This document shows, in pieces, positions 34,044 to 41,914 of a stretch of 64,000 nt of DNA. Under the pieces are notes generated by a model, which had not been told where the DNA came from, ran no database searches, and saw only the letters and a program-made list of their open reading frames with translations. The stretch lies in assembly GCF_000016905.1 (NCBI RefSeq), contig NC_009616.1, positions 558,001 to 622,000 on the forward strand, given 5' to 3'. Position numbers and translations under genes: made by a program. How positions within the stretch are numbered: the stretch's first letter is position 1; each line of letters begins with the position of its first letter. Origin of the DNA: Thermosipho melanesiensis BI429 (GTDB lineage Bacteria > Thermotogota > Thermotogae > Thermotogales > Fervidobacteriaceae).

Positions 34044-34069
34044 AGTCCTAGTTCCAAGGAACTAGGACT
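34044..34069 (-). terminator. Terminator of the opp-type operon
   Basis: Near-perfect 11-base stem (34044-34054 with 34059-34069, loop CAAG), followed on the minus strand by TTTTTTT. It overlaps the stop codon of the last ABC ATPase. Confidence 0.94.
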
Positions 34070-35072
34070 ATATTTTTCCTTCTGCAACCAAATAACATGA
34101 AACATAGTGTCCATTACCCATATCCTTTAGAGGAGGATGCGGATTTTTTTCACAGTCCTTTGTTCTAAATGGGCATCTATCATAAAATCTACATCTTGGT
34201 GGTGGATTTATGGGTTTACTAACAGACCCTATTATATTTGGTTCACCTTTAACGTAATCTGGATCTGGTATTGGAACAGCAGAAAGTAACGCTTTTGTGT
34301 ATGGATGTAGCGGATTAAATAATATCTCTTCTGCATCTGCATACTCAACTATTTTTCCCAAATACATTACGGCTATTTTATCACACATATACCTTGCTAC
34401 AGCAAAATCATGCGTTATATACAAATAACTCATATTGTATTTTTCCTGTAGCTCCATTAGAAGATTCATAACTCCAGTTCTTACCGAAACATCAAGCATA
34501 GATGTTGGTTCATCTGCAACTATAAATGTTGGTTCTAAAACCAACGCCCTTGCTATTGCAACTCTTTGCCTTTGCCCACCTGAAAGCTCATGTGGATATC
34601 TCCACAAAAAGCTTGAAGGTGGTGTAAGCCCAACATCTTGTAACAACTTTAATACTTTCTCCTCTCTTTCTTTTAAATTTCCTATATTGTGAATGTTTAA
34701 TGGCTCAGCGATAATATCAAATATTGTCATCCTAGGATTTAGAGATTCATATGGGTCTTGAAAAATCATCTGTACCTTTTTGTGATACTCCAATTTAGAT
34801 GGAAATCTATATATTTCTTTTCCCTCTATGAACACATTCCCTGCAGTAGGTTTTTCAAGACCAACTATTACCTTTCCTGTGGTAGTTTTTCCACATCCAG
34901 ATTCACCAACTAATCCTAATGACTTTCCTCTTTTTATTTCAAACGATACATCATCAACTGCGTGCACAAAATGTTTAACTTTTGAAAATAATCCTCTATC
35001 TGCAGCAAAGAATTTTTTCAATCCATCAACTTTCAATATTATATCCGTTGCTTTAGAGCTCAATTTTTGCAT
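34068..35072 (-). CDS. Oligopeptide/sugar ABC transporter ATP-binding protein, OppF type
   Basis: A 334-residue ABC ATPase. Walker A GESGCGKTTTGK, Q-loop MIFQDPYESLNPRMTI, signature ELSGGQRQRVAIARAL, Walker B FIVADEPTSMLDVSV, and the C-terminal oligopeptide domain ending GCRFYDRCPF-like PRCRFYDRCPFRTKDC, whose four cysteines may hold an iron-sulfur cluster as in Opp ATPases. It pairs with the OppD-type subunit, whose gene it overlaps by 20 bases. It is the last gene of a five-gene importer operon. Confidence 0.95.
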   Translation of the reverse strand: MQKLSSKATDIILKVDGLKKFFAADRGLFSKVKHFVHAVDDVSFEIKRGKSLGLVGESGCGKTTTGKVIVGLEKPTAGNVFIEGKEIYRFPSKLEYHKKVQMIFQDPYESLNPRMTIFDIIAEPLNIHNIGNLKEREEKVLKLLQDVGLTPPSSFLWRYPHELSGGQRQRVAIARALVLEPTFIVADEPTSMLDVSVRTGVMNLLMELQEKYNMSYLYITHDFAVARYMCDKIAVMYLGKIVEYADAEEILFNPLHPYTKALLSAVPIPDPDYVKGEPNIIGSVSKPINPPPRCRFYDRCPFRTKDCEKNPHPPLKDMGNGHYVSCYLVAEGKI

Positions 35073-36057
35073 CTTTTCTCACCTCTTCACTTAAAGGATG
35101 CCAACATGCTACAAAGTGTCCATCCTCAATTTCTTTATATTCCGGCTCTTCATTCTTGCACTTTTCCGTCGCCCAAGGACATCGCGGTGCAAATCTACAT
35201 CCCTTTGGTGGGTTTAAAAGATTTGGAGGTTCTCCTGGGATAGTTAACAATTTTTTCTTTTCACCAATTGTACTTGGAAATGCATTCATAAGTAAAAATG
35301 TATATGGATGCATTGGATTTTTAAATATATCACGCGAACTTCCAAGTTCAACAAACTTTCCAGCATACATAACAGCTATCTTATCACTAACTTCGGCTAT
35401 AACAGCTATATCATGTGATATATAGATCATTGCCATATTTAGTTGTTTTTGTATTTTTTTCATTTCCTTTAAAATCTTATCCTGAACTATAACATCCAGT
35501 GCAGTTGTTGGTTCATCAGCAATAATTACCTTTGGATCACAAGATAGAGCAAGCGCAATAACAGCTCTTTGTTTCATTCCTCCACTGTATTGGTGTGGAT
35601 ATTGTTCCATTCTTTTTGGATCAAGACCAACTAGCTCAAACAACTTTGCAACTTTCTTTTTAGCATCGTCAATACTCATTTCTGGATAATGAGTTAATAT
35701 AGCTTCAACTATTTGATCACCAACCTTGTACACTGGATTCAACGAATTCATAGCAGCTTGAAAAACCATGGCAAGACCTTTCCATCTATACTTTCTCATC
35801 TCTTCTTCTGAAAGGGAAACAAGATCAACAATTTTTCCATTGTCATTAAATAATACTTTTCCTTCTTTAAACTCACCATTTTCTGGCAAAAGTCTTAACA
35901 TTGTCATTGAAACAGACGTCTTCCCACATCCAGATTCACCCACTATTCCCAAACTTTCACCACTATCCAAGGTGAAATTTATTCCATCAACGGCTTTTAC
36001 ATACCCCATTTTAGTTTTATAGTGCATCTTTAAATTTTTTACTTCAAGCAATGCCAC
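35053..36057 (-). CDS. Oligopeptide/sugar ABC transporter ATP-binding protein, OppD type
   Basis: A 334-residue ABC ATPase. Walker A GESGCGKTSVSM, the expected MVFQAAMNSLNPVYKVGDQ, signature QYSGGMKQRAVIALAL, Walker B VIIADEPTTALDVIVQ, and the C-terminal cysteines GCRFAPRCPWATEKC. Partner of the OppF-type ATPase in the cytoplasm. It starts seven bases after the OppC-type permease gene. In Thermotogota such five-gene sets often import oligosaccharides rather than peptides, so the substrate stays open. Confidence 0.95.
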   Translation of the reverse strand: MALLEVKNLKMHYKTKMGYVKAVDGINFTLDSGESLGIVGESGCGKTSVSMTMLRLLPENGEFKEGKVLFNDNGKIVDLVSLSEEEMRKYRWKGLAMVFQAAMNSLNPVYKVGDQIVEAILTHYPEMSIDDAKKKVAKLFELVGLDPKRMEQYPHQYSGGMKQRAVIALALSCDPKVIIADEPTTALDVIVQDKILKEMKKIQKQLNMAMIYISHDIAVIAEVSDKIAVMYAGKFVELGSSRDIFKNPMHPYTFLLMNAFPSTIGEKKKLLTIPGEPPNLLNPPKGCRFAPRCPWATEKCKNEEPEYKEIEDGHFVACWHPLSEEVRKDAKIEL

Positions 36058-36063
36058 TTCAAA

Positions 36064-38589
36064 TCACCTCTTTCTAAGTCTTGGGTTGACAATTTCTTCG
36101 AGACCTCTTCCTAAGAAATAAAATCCTGAACAGAATATTGTTATTATTAACCCCGCAGGTATCCAAAGCCACCAATATGCACCTATATTTCCCGATGAAA
36201 GATAACCAGATGTCCATGCTGTATTGATCATTATACCCCAACTAATCCTTATCCTCAAAAGCCCGAAAAAGCTAAGGGATGCTTCTGAAAATACAGCCCC
36301 TGTAACGTTAAACATCATATATAGGAATGAAAGAGGCATGACATTGGGAATAATGTGATTGAATATAATATATCTGTTGCTCGCTCCTGCAACTTTTGCA
36401 GCTTCTATATAAGGTTTCACTTTTATAGTTAACGCCTGCGCTTTAATAACCAAAGTTATTCCTCCAAATCCTCCAAGAAGACCTAAAATCAAAGCAAGCC
36501 AGAAAAGATTTAATTTAAAGAATCCCGACAAAACAATTAAAAATGCTATACCAGGAAACAAGAGCATCAAATCCGCAAGTCTCATAAAAAATGTATCAAT
36601 TATTCCACCGTAATATGCTGCAGTAGTTCCTATTATTGTACCAATAGTTACAGTAATAACTGCCGCAAGAAATCCCAACATAAATTCACTAGGCGTACTC
36701 CTCCAAAGCTGCATAAATATATCTCTTCCACCTGGATCAGTACCCAAAACATGCCATCTATTTGGAGGAAGTGGATGTTGAATTCCCAATTTTGATTCAA
36801 GAGCAAGCTGATTGTATATTGAAACCAATAACTTTTGAGCATCTTTCTGCGAAAGATTAATTGTTTTTTTCAAATTATCAACAACTGTTGAAATATCATT
36901 CTGGGCCATCAAAACATTACTGTATTTTTCTTCCCAATAACTTTTATCTTCTAGATTTTCTATGTATTTTTTTATTAAACTTTTCATAGTTTGTTTTGAT
37001 AAAATATCATACTCGTGGAATTTGTTTATAAAGTTTATCTGTTCAGTAAGCGCTAAATTACCTTCCAGTTTTTCTACTATATCTTCCCTTTTGTAATTTA
37101 TATCCCCAGCACTTTTTATGTTTTCCACTATTAAATCAAAATGCTTTGTTCCTTTTGTTGCATATGACAAAAGCGCCACCATAGGTTTATCCAAAGCGGG
37201 AATAAATTTAGTATAATCCATTGAAAGATACACCTCTGGAACTTTTATTTGTTCAATTGATTTGTTGTAAATATCTGATATTATTGACATCATGAAAACT
37301 CTCGAATTTGCTACAAGCTTGAAAAGATCTTCTTGTTTTTTTCTAAAACTTTCCTGTATATCTTCAAAATCTTTTAGCTTATTTTCCAATTTTGCTTTAA
37401 TATCTGATGACAAATCAAAACTTATCGTTGCAAGATTTATTCCTGATAAATAATCTAATATTATTTGTGGATTTTTAATATCAAATGTTAAACCTAACTG
37501 AGTAAAGGTCTTTTTAAGCTCAGAAAAATACTGCTCTATTCTATTCAAATTTGATTTTTTATTCTCAGAATTTTCCAAATCAGGGACCTTAGTTTCAGCA
37601 AATGGCATTAGATCTTTGTAATGCGAATTCTCTAATTTTGAAATAATTTCCTCATTTTCTTTTATCTTTGCATATGTAATTAAATCTACCAATGTATTAA
37701 AGACCGTTGCCTTTGTTAGATCAAATGTAGAAATTTTATCAAACCTTATTACATCCTCTAAATCTTTCTGATTGGAAACCGAAACTTGAACGTTTATTTC
37801 TCCCTCTTTGTACAACTTTTGAACTGCTTTAAATATTTCTTCTTCTGCTTGTTTTATTTCCTCTTCATTATAGTTTAATCCTAAAAGCTCATTGAATTTT
37901 TCTCTTTCATCTCTACCCTTTGCTATTTTTATCCAAAGACCAATGGTAGAAACTTCCCTTTTATTTTTATAAACGGATAACGCTTTTGCCAACGTTTCAA
38001 CATCTACACTTTCTAAAAGCTTTTTAAAAGATGTTAATGAAAATTTCTTTCTGTCACCAATTTCAACCACATCAGATAAGGGTTTAACAATAATTAGATC
38101 CTCTTCCAATAACTGAGATAACTGAGTTTGAAATCTCATTCTTTCTTTTATGGGAAAATAACTATCTACTATTGTATCTAGTATATGTCTAAAGGCTTGT
38201 GCATAATCCAGATTAACAAATTGCCTTTGAGCAATATCTATCCTTTTCTCAATTTCTTTTTTAAATGCTTCACCTTGATCAAGAAATGAATAGGTAAAAA
38301 GTTTTGAAGAAGGAATCTCTATTCCCTTAATGATATTTTGAGCTGACATGTGCTTTGAAATGTATGAAATATCTTGAACCCGTGGATCAGTACCAGTAAC
38401 AGGATGATAGATACTATGATCTACAAATTGCCACGCAATCGGATAAGTAAGTGCAAAGATACCAAATATGATTATAATGGTTAACCCAAAAACTCCCATT
38501 TTACTCTCTTTAAAAAGATTCCAATTCTTTCTAAAATTTTTTATGAAAAGTTTTAATTTTATTTTAGTAATAGATTCATTTGCCATCAA
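36064..38589 (-). CDS. ABC permease, OppC type, with an insertion of about 530 residues
   Basis: An 841-residue protein; OppC/DppC permeases normally have about 280-340. Residues 1-75 give the usual N-terminus with the first span (GVFGLTIIIIFGIFALTYPIA). From residue 613 the sequence is canonical: HVLGTDPGGRDIFMQLWRS, five spans, and the EAA loop (EAAKVAGASNRYIIFNHIIP) that contacts the ATPase. Between them lie about 530 residues, charged and helical with heptad-like stretches, where the normal protein has only a short loop outside the membrane. The insertion should therefore be extracytoplasmic. The reading frame is intact, with no sign of fusion by frameshift. The gene sits between oppB- and oppD-type genes. 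Confidence 0.93.
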   Translation of the reverse strand: MMANESITKIKLKLFIKNFRKNWNLFKESKMGVFGLTIIIIFGIFALTYPIAWQFVDHSIYHPVTGTDPRVQDISYISKHMSAQNIIKGIEIPSSKLFTYSFLDQGEAFKKEIEKRIDIAQRQFVNLDYAQAFRHILDTIVDSYFPIKERMRFQTQLSQLLEEDLIIVKPLSDVVEIGDRKKFSLTSFKKLLESVDVETLAKALSVYKNKREVSTIGLWIKIAKGRDEREKFNELLGLNYNEEEIKQAEEEIFKAVQKLYKEGEINVQVSVSNQKDLEDVIRFDKISTFDLTKATVFNTLVDLITYAKIKENEEIISKLENSHYKDLMPFAETKVPDLENSENKKSNLNRIEQYFSELKKTFTQLGLTFDIKNPQIILDYLSGINLATISFDLSSDIKAKLENKLKDFEDIQESFRKKQEDLFKLVANSRVFMMSIISDIYNKSIEQIKVPEVYLSMDYTKFIPALDKPMVALLSYATKGTKHFDLIVENIKSAGDINYKREDIVEKLEGNLALTEQINFINKFHEYDILSKQTMKSLIKKYIENLEDKSYWEEKYSNVLMAQNDISTVVDNLKKTINLSQKDAQKLLVSIYNQLALESKLGIQHPLPPNRWHVLGTDPGGRDIFMQLWRSTPSEFMLGFLAAVITVTIGTIIGTTAAYYGGIIDTFFMRLADLMLLFPGIAFLIVLSGFFKLNLFWLALILGLLGGFGGITLVIKAQALTIKVKPYIEAAKVAGASNRYIIFNHIIPNVMPLSFLYMMFNVTGAVFSEASLSFFGLLRIRISWGIMINTAWTSGYLSSGNIGAYWWLWIPAGLIITIFCSGFYFLGRGLEEIVNPRLRKR

Positions 38590-38599
38590 ATTTCACCCC

Positions 38600-40033
38600 T
38601 CAATATCTAATTCTAGGATCAAGGATTGCATATAGAATATCAGCTACCAAATGAGCCACAAGAATAAACACACCGGTAAAAGTTAAACATCCCATTGCAA
38701 GAGGTGTATCTTGAACAAGTGTAGCATTTAATAAAGTAAGTCCCATACCTTTCCAAGAAAACATAGTCTCTGTAATAACACCACCACTAACAGTAGTTGC
38801 AAGGGATAAAACAAAACTAGTAACTAACGGTAATAACGCCGTTCTTGCCGCATGTTTGTCTCTCACAACTTTATCGGGAAGTCCTTTAGCTTTTGCTGTT
38901 GTAATATAATCTTCTTTTATTATCTCAAGCATAGTATCTCTCATAACCAACATACTTCCCGCAAAACCAAGAACTGTTAATGATAATACTGGAAGAACAA
39001 CATGATACACTATATCTAATGCATAATACCCATATCCATTAAATATCCAATAAAGAATTACAATAGCAATACCAAAAAAAGTAATGCTTAACATAGATAT
39101 TGATTTAGCCTTTTTTGTTTTCATAAATGCTGCAACTATTAACCCTACTACCCAGAAAACAACTAGTAAAAACGCACTTAACAAAAGCCTTATAAATACA
39201 TCTTGAGTAGAGAATTTAACGTTCAACCATTTAGATGGTTCTATAAAACCGCTTATTGGGAATATTTTCAACACAACACCAAAAAGCCAAATCATAATAA
39301 GCATAAAAAACGGAGTAAATATAGTCCAAAAGACTATTCCAACAAATGTGGCAATTTTATCTGAAATGCCTCCACGTTTCCAAGCAATTCTTTTTCCAAG
39401 GTTATATCCCAAAACATACGAAGAAAGTGTGGTCATTAAAAACAAAAATACAGTTCTTGGAAGCCTTTCTGCAATTATTTCTTCCACTCGTTTGGGATAT
39501 TCCGAAAAAGATATTCCAAGTTCCAAATTAAAGAAATTTCGCATATGTTTTGCGTATTTTACATACCACGGATCACCTACACCAAACAGTTTTTTTATTC
39601 TCTCCATCATTTCCGGTTGTTTCATAATTTTCGGGTCAAGAAACTTTGAAGTATAATCTCCTGGCATTGCTAAGAATATAAAAAACACAACAGTTACATA
39701 TATCACAAGTAAAATTAACATTTGATATATCCTGTTTCTTACAAATTTAAACAATCCAGGAAGTGGTAGTGAAAATAAGTACAAAACAATAGAAAGTAAA
39801 TAGTTAAATCTTGGACTAAAAACAAATAGGTATTTAAACCCAAAAAACGCAGAAAAATAAAGTAAAAGAGATATAAAAAGAAAAATATAATGATAAACCT
39901 TTTTCGTATTAAATATAGTTGTCACAATTGCAAACAAGGGCAAAACTAATCCAAAAGCAAGAGTTTTGGAGAAAAACAAAAACACAAAAAACAACAATCC
40001 TATTATTAACTGTGTCCAGTGTTTTGTATTCAT
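38600..40033 (-). CDS. ABC permease, OppB type, with extra N-terminal spans
   Basis: A 477-residue permease; the usual length is about 306-340. The canonical part begins near residue 100 (RNRIYQMLILLVIYVTVVFFIF) and includes LFGVGDPWYVKYAKHMRNFFNLELGISF, the ADR-type EIIKEDYITTAKAKGLPDKVV EAA loop and the end HLVADILYAILDPRIRY. The first 98 residues add about four hydrophobic segments, and two more may lie around residues 275-330. ATG 40033 follows AGAGGTG; a GTG two codons earlier is within that site. It is separated from the upstream binding-protein gene by a hairpin. Confidence 0.92.
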   Translation of the reverse strand: MNTKHWTQLIIGLLFFVFLFFSKTLAFGLVLPLFAIVTTIFNTKKVYHYIFLFISLLLYFSAFFGFKYLFVFSPRFNYLLSIVLYLFSLPLPGLFKFVRNRIYQMLILLVIYVTVVFFIFLAMPGDYTSKFLDPKIMKQPEMMERIKKLFGVGDPWYVKYAKHMRNFFNLELGISFSEYPKRVEEIIAERLPRTVFLFLMTTLSSYVLGYNLGKRIAWKRGGISDKIATFVGIVFWTIFTPFFMLIMIWLFGVVLKIFPISGFIEPSKWLNVKFSTQDVFIRLLLSAFLLVVFWVVGLIVAAFMKTKKAKSISMLSITFFGIAIVILYWIFNGYGYYALDIVYHVVLPVLSLTVLGFAGSMLVMRDTMLEIIKEDYITTAKAKGLPDKVVRDKHAARTALLPLVTSFVLSLATTVSGGVITETMFSWKGMGLTLLNATLVQDTPLAMGCLTFTGVFILVAHLVADILYAILDPRIRY

Positions 40034-40061
40034 TTTCACCTCTCCTTTTTGTAGTAAAATT

Positions 40062-40090: not shown

Positions 40091-41914
40091 TTATTTTACT
40101 TTCATTACATTTTCCGGGAATCCGTTATAGTTTTGAATACCATCGAGTGTGTCTGTGTACGGGAATTGGATTGTATCTCTGTAAGCCTCGTAAATTGGTG
40201 TTGTAAAGAGAATGATATATGGAAGATCTTCTGCAAGAAGTTCTTGTGCTTCTTTTATCGCTTCAACTGCTTCATCAAAGTTATCTGCCATTTCAAATTC
40301 TTCTACTAATGCATCAAATTCAGGATTATTGTAACCTGGAGTGTTAAATCCTTCTGGTGCCATTTGGTCTGATGCCCAGAAGCTCTTAAAGTATGTTGGT
40401 ACTCTTCCTATACCCCAACCAAGCATGTACATATCAAAATCAACCTCATCAAATGCCCTTGTAACTATTTCATTGAAATCTGTAAGTTTTACATCAATTG
40501 GAATACCAAGATCTTTTGCCCATTGCTCAATATATATTGCTGTTGTTGCTCTCATTGGGTCGTATTCACCTGATGGTGAAAGAAGTTCAAGATCTGGTAC
40601 GTAGTTTCCATCTGGACCTTTAAGTCCTTTACCGCGTTTGGAAACTGGATTTGCAGGATTATCTGGATTTATAACTGGCTCTTGATCCCAGCTAAAGCCC
40701 GCCTTCTTAAGAAGATCTACGGCCAATTGATATCTTTCCGCTCTTGAAAGTCCTTCACCTATGGTCTTTACATCCGTATTAAACCAGAACGTATTTGCTG
40801 GTGGTACAGGTGTTGCAAGAGGAATTGCCTTTCCTTGAAGTACCCTATTACAAATATAGTCCCTGTCTATTAATGCTGCTATTGCTTGCCTAAATTCCTT
40901 TATATTGAAAGGATATTTTCTCATGTTAAATGCAAGATATCTAAATCCAAGTGAAGGATTAACTGTTAATTTTATGCCAGGTACACCCTTAAGAGATTCA
41001 AATTCTCCAGATGTTAAACCATTTGGATTCAGTACGAAATCAACATCGCCTTTTTGAAGTGCTTGTAGCGCAACAGACTTGTTCCCATAAATTCTATATA
41101 TAATTTTATCAACATATGGTCCATTAACAACTTCTAACTTTACATATCCATTTGGCTCTGGATTGTTACTTGTCCATTTGTAACCACTGTTTGGATTTTC
41201 AACTACAAATCCACCATTTTCATAGTAAATAGATTTTTCACCTTTTGCCCAATAAAAGTTATCATCAACTTCTTTTTTCACTTCAACAAATGCACCTTTT
41301 TCTATCTTCCCAAGGTTTAATGCAGTAATACCAGGATCTACAACTTCTTGACTTAGTAACCAATTAACAGGATTCTCTTGTTGTTTAGCTTTTTCTACAT
41401 ATGGTTCCCAGAAATTTTTACATACCAATGCTGTCATAAGTGTATCGTAATATATTGTCATTGTCTTTTTTTCTTCAAAGTAGAATTTTACAGTCCATGG
41501 ATCAATTTTTTCAACCTTTTTGGGTTCATATGCACCCGTCCAGTTACCACCTGGTATTTGCAATTCTTGAATGGTATTATAGGTAAACACAACATCATCT
41601 GCTGTAAATGGTGAACCATCACTCCATCTTAAATCTTTTCTCAATTTAACCGTTACTGTATACATTCCATCTTCTTCTACTATTGTTGGAACTTCTAACG
41701 CTGCAGATGGTATCAACATTCCATCTTTGTTCATGGAAAGCAATGATGGATATTTCCAAAGCTGCACATAGAAATTCCACGCCGATGAACCAGAACCTAA
41801 CAGATTCCAAATATTTGTTGTCGTAATATCCTCTAGTAAAGCATAGTTCACAACTGTTTCAGCAAATATAAATATACTCAATAAAATAGTTAGAAAAACT
41901 AACAAACGTTTCAT
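40091..41914 (-). CDS. Extracellular solute-binding protein, family 5
   Basis: A 607-residue exported SBP_bac_5 protein with a signal peptide (MKRLLVFLTILLSIFIFAETVVNY) and no lipobox Cys. Family features: LRKDLRWSDGSPFTADDVVFTYN near residue 90, DVDFVLNPNGLTSGEF, GFRYLAFNMRKYPFN, and FRQAIAALIDRDYI. It captures the solute outside the membrane and hands it to the enlarged permeases. The ligand, oligosaccharide or peptide, is not readable. First gene of the operon, with promoter at 41977-42006. Confidence 0.95.
   Translation of the reverse strand: MKRLLVFLTILLSIFIFAETVVNYALLEDITTTNIWNLLGSGSSAWNFYVQLWKYPSLLSMNKDGMLIPSAALEVPTIVEEDGMYTVTVKLRKDLRWSDGSPFTADDVVFTYNTIQELQIPGGNWTGAYEPKKVEKIDPWTVKFYFEEKKTMTIYYDTLMTALVCKNFWEPYVEKAKQQENPVNWLLSQEVVDPGITALNLGKIEKGAFVEVKKEVDDNFYWAKGEKSIYYENGGFVVENPNSGYKWTSNNPEPNGYVKLEVVNGPYVDKIIYRIYGNKSVALQALQKGDVDFVLNPNGLTSGEFESLKGVPGIKLTVNPSLGFRYLAFNMRKYPFNIKEFRQAIAALIDRDYICNRVLQGKAIPLATPVPPANTFWFNTDVKTIGEGLSRAERYQLAVDLLKKAGFSWDQEPVINPDNPANPVSKRGKGLKGPDGNYVPDLELLSPSGEYDPMRATTAIYIEQWAKDLGIPIDVKLTDFNEIVTRAFDEVDFDMYMLGWGIGRVPTYFKSFWASDQMAPEGFNTPGYNNPEFDALVEEFEMADNFDEAVEAIKEAQELLAEDLPYIILFTTPIYEAYRDTIQFPYTDTLDGIQNYNGFPENVMKVK

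Follow-up and report, generated by a model that had tools for sequence, protein, structure and literature searches.

Type I ABC importers are usually seen as a fixed machine in which specificity resides in the binding protein. In E. coli, the P2 domain of the permease MalF contacts the maltose-binding protein. MalF itself has more spans than usual, and it offers a described case of a type I permease equipped with an additional domain in the periplasm (PMC2246101). In Thermotogales, a hydrophilic region of ~500 amino acids separates TM1 from TM2 in the permeases MalG1 and MalG2 (Noll et al. 2008, PMC2246101). Giant inserts at this site of a Thermotogota type I permease are already known in the case of MalG. 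Here we describe an OppC-type permease with a large insert in the same loop, encoded in a stretch of 64,000 nucleotides from Thermosipho melanesiensis BI429 (hereafter, the window).

The permease gene is the third in a five-gene operon on the minus strand, all members of which match the expected Pfam families. The other products are a family-5 solute-binding protein (SBP_bac_5; 40091..41914) with a signal peptide and no lipobox cysteine, an OppB-type permease of 479 amino acids (38600..40039), and OppD- and OppF-type ATPases (35053..36057 and 34068..35072, respectively), each comprising ABC_tran and oligo_HPY. Judged by these assignments, the locus is a complete, conventional type I ABC importer of the Opp/Dpp class. 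By class it would be of the peptide/sugar type and may transport oligopeptides, a putative substrate; sugars, too, are among the ligands of family-5 binding proteins, 4pfu for example being labelled a mannoside-binding protein.

The minus-strand open reading frame of the OppC-type permease occupies 36064-38589 and yields 841 amino acids when counted from TTG. However, the start is probably the ATG at 38586, giving 840 amino acids (36064..38586), because a well-placed GAGGGGTG ribosome-binding site lies upstream and relatives share this start. The TTG directly precedes this ATG, and gene callers that choose it produce a protein one residue too long. Residue numbers of OppC features are counted from the ATG unless stated otherwise.

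As the earlier note on this DNA had proposed, the first span and the core of this protein are of the standard kind. Hydropathy places TM1 at residues 32-50 (38437..38493; 33-51 in the 841-residue numbering) and the next span at 636-654 in the 841-residue numbering, with no transmembrane span predicted between them and hence none in the insert. OppC_N matches residues 21-53 of the 841-residue form, under the Pfam curated cut-off. The BPD_transp_1 core (PF00528, E 2e-19) covers residues 649-839 (36070..36642; 650-840 in the 841-residue numbering) and has its EAA coupling loop near residues 728-747, a region that is strongly conserved in the ortholog alignment. The best NCBIfam model for this core is Opp4C, under its cut-off, and the best solved-structure match is E. 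coli OppC (E 1.7e-31 to 8z21_B). Foldseek likewise finds the same fold as in solved permeases of the Opp/Dpp class.

The loop between TM1 and TM2 departs from this standard plan. In short orthologues it reads ...YDPVxGxD...HPxPPSxxHxLGTDPxGRD, and in the window protein DHSIYHPVTGTDPR is followed by ~530 residues and then by HPLPPNRWHVLGTDPGGRD. Alignment to the short orthologues places the boundaries of the insert after Y-x-P-V-x-G-x-D and before HPxPPxxxHxLGTDPxGRD. Specifically, the conserved motif YHPVTGTDP, common to the short orthologues, lies at residues 60-68 (38383..38409, minus strand); the insert follows at residues ~69-600 (36787..38382), and the conserved HPLPPNRWHVLGTDPGGRD forms its downstream edge at residues 604-622 (36721..36777). 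An insertion of this size, claimed earlier for residues ~75-605, is therefore borne out, and an assembly artefact was rejected since at least 14 other genomes encode a protein of this architecture, with 49-79% identity over its whole length. Charged residues (K, R, D and E) account for 164 of the 536 residues of the insert, which has no cysteine.

By homology, the insert should face the periplasm, in keeping with the outward orientation given in the earlier note. Residues 1-30 contain eight K/R versus two D/E, which by the positive-inside rule places the N-terminus inside; the insert lies between this single N-in TM1 and TM2; and in solved DppC the corresponding loop lies in the periplasm (PMC12136057). 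A cytoplasmic insert, the alternative that the note had set against its own reading, was rejected on these same grounds.

A survey of 103 Thermotogota genomes located the long OppC in 15 genomes of the window's family (f1) and in a lineage outside the window's order (f11). Within f1, which includes Fervidobacterium through loci L039 and L042 (placed in f1 by the tree), it is absent from genus g4 and from genome G072. The g4 genomes (G081-G084) lack both the importer and FliG, while G072 has FliG and lacks the importer. Short orthologues, with cores 61-70% identical, lengths of mostly 315-348 amino acids and TM1-TM2 loops of ~70 residues, were found in other Thermotogota, in Bipolaricaulota and in Bacillota. 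In a maximum-likelihood tree of the OppC core, all window-type long forms make up one clade (100/99) nested among the short forms, and on this tree the window-type insert is of single origin. Transfer of the long OppC between f1 and f11 is likely, given that families f2 and f3 belong to the window's order but lack the window-type insert, whereas f11 has it.

Compared with other genera, identity is 80-81% in the OppC core versus 31-35% in the insert. Along the insert, identity across genera is highest in residues 60-143 (48-56%) and lowest in residues 267-560 (21-30%), and many positions are invariant within the clade. This pattern suits a scaffold in which a single contact region is conserved, and is less expected of a gating element.

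The partner permease has been remodelled as well. OppB carries an N-terminal extension of ~98 amino acids with approximately four predicted spans (39746..40039, minus strand) that is restricted to the clade with the window-type OppC insert, so both the additional spans and the joint redesign of OppB and OppC suggested earlier hold up. Complete OppB proteins beside a window-type insert (f1/f11) have 461-497 amino acids, and those beside a short OppC mostly have 383-412. Four Bipolaricaulota loci (L060, L063, L065 and L071) have an OppB of 448-456 amino acids, ~60 above the usual length, beside a short OppC of 342-348 amino acids. The window OppB family also appears to have approximately two further hydrophobic spans mid-protein (residues ~285-332) relative to general OppB models, a feature shared with short-OppC relatives, and NCBIfam OppB models match the window OppB in two separate stretches.

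A parallel event is found in f3 genera g10, g11 and g14 (L080-L084), where the orthologous OppC has 950-960 amino acids and an insert of ~660 amino acids located before the YDPxTGxD motif, whereas that of the window comes after it. Homology between these two inserts was rejected by profile-profile comparison. The accompanying f3 OppB (524-526 amino acids) has a four-span insertion of ~130 amino acids mid-protein, unlike the N-terminal extension of f1/f11. A large OppC insert and extra OppB spans have thus been gained together twice, by different routes, and the f3 event argues that the changes in the two permeases go together. This pairing is not universal, however, because a second OppC of T. 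melanesiensis (L079:3495-5126, plus strand; genome ~1391494-1393122), which has 543 amino acids and an unrelated TM1-TM2 insert of ~240 residues, is accompanied by an ordinary OppB of 321 amino acids.

The family of this second OppC spans the phylum, with 491-626 amino acids in most genomes and 902-915 in f3 genus g14. In addition, MalG of the same genome (L078:2516-4897, minus strand), encoded ~2 kb beyond the window end, has 793 amino acids, ~540 of which lie between TM1 and TM2. Long MalG forms occur widely in Thermotogota, and in relatives the MalG insert matches coiled-coil families and gives no FliG_C match. Homology of the window insert was rejected both to the MalG insert (hhalign probability 0.3-0.5%, E ~0.1-0.2) and, by profile-profile comparison, to the insert of the second OppC. 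By the same type of comparison, at least four mutually sequence-unrelated inserts fill the TM1-TM2 slot. Since unrelated inserts occupy this loop in other Thermotogota importers, it looks like a recurrent docking slot. Among 15 genomes, mostly of other phyla, OppC-type frames are mostly of 270-400 codons, with a few of 500-665 that possibly reflect frame run-on. The earlier note had left open whether the insertion is widespread in the phylum: the window's own insert is confined to one clade, and unrelated inserts in the same slot are common.

The repeated origin of TM1-TM2 inserts in the phylum, together with their varying lengths, could mean that the loop simply tolerates insertions and that a functionless insert has been kept by chance. 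We consider such neutral accretion very improbable because each of the 15 window-family genomes in which the gene was found retains the insert as an open and conserved domain, and because a confident fold is predicted for it. Alternatively, the insert might serve as a thermostabilising or steric cap or spacer that shields the periplasmic face or sets the height of the binding protein; it would then need no specific partner, and any stable helical bundle would suffice. Its fast evolution, the number of sequence-unrelated inserts in the slot and the fact that close orthologues work without it are all consistent with this idea. Nevertheless, the identity retained at residues 60-143 and the many invariant positions speak against it, as do the specific packing suggested by the paired OppB extension and the short loop kept by other Thermotogota families of the same order. 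We therefore regard a cap or spacer as unlikely.

Structure prediction with AF2 yields an insert made only of helices, with an ordered domain at residues ~143-428 (37303..38160, minus strand; pLDDT mostly 80-95). When the whole OppC was modelled (10 sequences), pLDDT was ~80-92 at residues 145-425 and low elsewhere, and when the insert was modelled alone (5 sequences), it was ~90 over residues ~145-425. The confident domain of ~285 residues consists of many short helices and no long rod; confidence is low for residues 79-144, residues 430-600 and much of the membrane part. The insert had been described in the earlier note as charged and helical with coiled-coil character. The first two attributes stand, but the third seems weak. 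The region modelled with confidence folds as a compact helical domain, and no Pfam coiled-coil family was consistently matched by the insert orthologues; residues 430-600 are modelled with low confidence. Internal tandem repeats, suggested by a helix spacing of ~98 residues, are not supported, as comparison of sub-profiles matched only the residues shared in their overlap.

Searches of Pfam, NCBIfam and PDB sequences gave no match above cut-off over the insert, and in particular no domain that binds peptidoglycan, S-layer, wall, toga or outer membrane. The direct reach to the toga that the earlier note had entertained is thus not supported, both because these searches gave no peptidoglycan-, S-layer- or outer-membrane-binding domain and because the confident part offers short helices and no rod. 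Below the curated cut-off, the search for known domains did return one recurrent signal. Pfam FliG_C matches the inserts of 8 of the 11 orthologues (best E 8e-4, under the curated cut-off), and every other family matches at most two of the 11. The signal lies at residues 185-265 (37792..38034, minus strand), where a genome-wide FliG_C scan also matches the window protein and the corresponding site in orthologues of the family (E 0.002-0.4). The FliG_C (PF01706) score is 10.4 bits for the window segment and at most 18.9 bits for relatives in the genome scan, all below the curated cut-off of 23.3 bits; these scores overlap the range given to the middle repeat of FliG itself and to MgtE-type or MgtE-size proteins. 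The FliG_C profile has no match in two more distant f11 homologues, and the MgtE_N profile does not match the insert.

Comparison of a Thermotogota FliG profile with the insert segment gives a probability of 52% (E 1.4e-4), in register. Foldseek with the predicted insert returns the C-terminal domain of T. maritima FliG (1qc7; probability 0.99, TM 0.71, rmsd 3.0 over 95 columns, but E 1.7) and H. pylori FliG (3usw; probability 0.97), the E-values for FliG being weak overall (~0.3-2). These findings suggest that residues 185-265 probably form an ARM-like module of the FliG type without being a member of FliG_C. Such modules occur in the periplasmic flagellar proteins MotE, FlgY and FlbB (PMC13023049, PMC11870540), and the ARM-like motifs of FliG and FlgY stack both intra- and intermolecularly (PMC11870540).

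This stacking, in combination with the FliG_C-like module, raises the possibility that the insert clusters or tethers importers. The module would stack with its own copies or with an envelope protein, so that importers are gathered in patches or fixed to the wall or toga while the binding protein is untouched. Unrelated inserts, some of them coiled-coil-like, in the same slot of other Thermotogota importers are also what generic anchoring predicts. Yet the insert has no recognised wall- or outer-membrane-binding domain among the libraries searched, its operon encodes no partner and its sequence is highly divergent. We judge clustering or tethering to be somewhat unlikely.

Our preferred reading, which we hold tentatively and with slightly less than even confidence, is that the insert acts as a periplasmic scaffold which evolves fast and docks either the non-lipidated binding protein or some other protein of the envelope, with the OppB spans as a buttress. 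In an ancestor of the clade, the TM1-TM2 loop of OppC would have acquired a helical domain serving as this scaffold, and OppB approximately four membrane spans. The insert, whose ordered half includes a probable ARM-like FliG-type module of a type that docks and stacks protein partners, would stand next to the translocation mouth and act as a docking platform. Its first candidate partner would be the freely diffusing, non-lipidated binding protein, captured and positioned by the insert; the second would be the insert itself or another envelope protein. We infer that the enlarged OppC is steadied in the membrane by the extra OppB spans and, by family membership, that the transport cycle is an ordinary type I cycle.

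Docking of the binding protein by the insert is plausible, and capture of a free binding protein would be sensible in a wide toga periplasm. However, nothing ties the insert to this protein specifically, because comparison with relatives revealed no clade-specific or matching new domain in it, and the binding proteins used by short-loop relatives are equally soluble (non-lipidated). Furthermore, the insert diverges far faster than the core, which is unlike a tight interface and weighs against docking.

A bolder proposal, which we consider quite improbable, is that a captured FliG-type ARM module stacks between transporters or with a periplasmic partner to build organised arrays of importers. 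On this view, the TM1-TM2 loop of type I importers would serve the Thermotogota envelope as a general evolutionary socket; unrelated docking domains would have been plugged into it independently, twice with a matching bundle of OppB spans.

The earlier note had also considered that such insertions might already be described and routine. They are described for MalG, but no description of the OppC insert, of its two independent origins, of the OppB remodelling that goes with it or of the FliG-like module was found in the literature searched, and all of these appear to be new. At least twice in one phylum, one subunit pair has been rebuilt, each time by a large periplasmic domain in this loop of one subunit and additional spans in the other, while close relatives stayed plain. 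This provides a natural with/without comparison from which to learn what an importer gains from a docking domain in the periplasm where the outer sheath is detached. The range of the ARM-like FliG/MgtE/MotE module would also widen, tentatively, to include the outward side of a transporter.

Like E. coli OppBCDF and DppABCDF and M. tuberculosis OppABCD, the window importer has the OppC core, an OppB, two oligo_HPY ATPases and a family-5 binding protein. However, the TM1-TM2 loop is short in the solved OppC and DppC chains, which comprise 287-302 residues; that of the window OppC is ~530 residues longer, and the window OppB differs by its approximately four extra N-terminal spans. The superfamily of the FliG C-terminal domain, MgtE_N and MotE-FlgY-FlbB resembles residues 185-265 in FliG_C profile and predicted fold, and its members MotE, FlgY and FlbB set a precedent for a periplasmic location. 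It differs in that the window module scores below curated cut-offs, is not matched by MgtE_N and is embedded in an ABC permease away from any flagellar gene context. E. coli MalF P2 is similarly a periplasmic extra domain in a permease with extra spans, but it comprises ~180 amino acids, lies between TM3 and TM4 and belongs to the other permease; its fold is not known to be related to that of the window OppC insert. Thermotogales MalG (Noll 2008) shares with the window OppC the subunit position in a type I permease, the loop, the approximate size of the insert and the phylum. The two inserts have no detectable sequence relation, that of MalG matching coiled-coil families and that of the window OppC resembling FliG_C below the curated cut-off.
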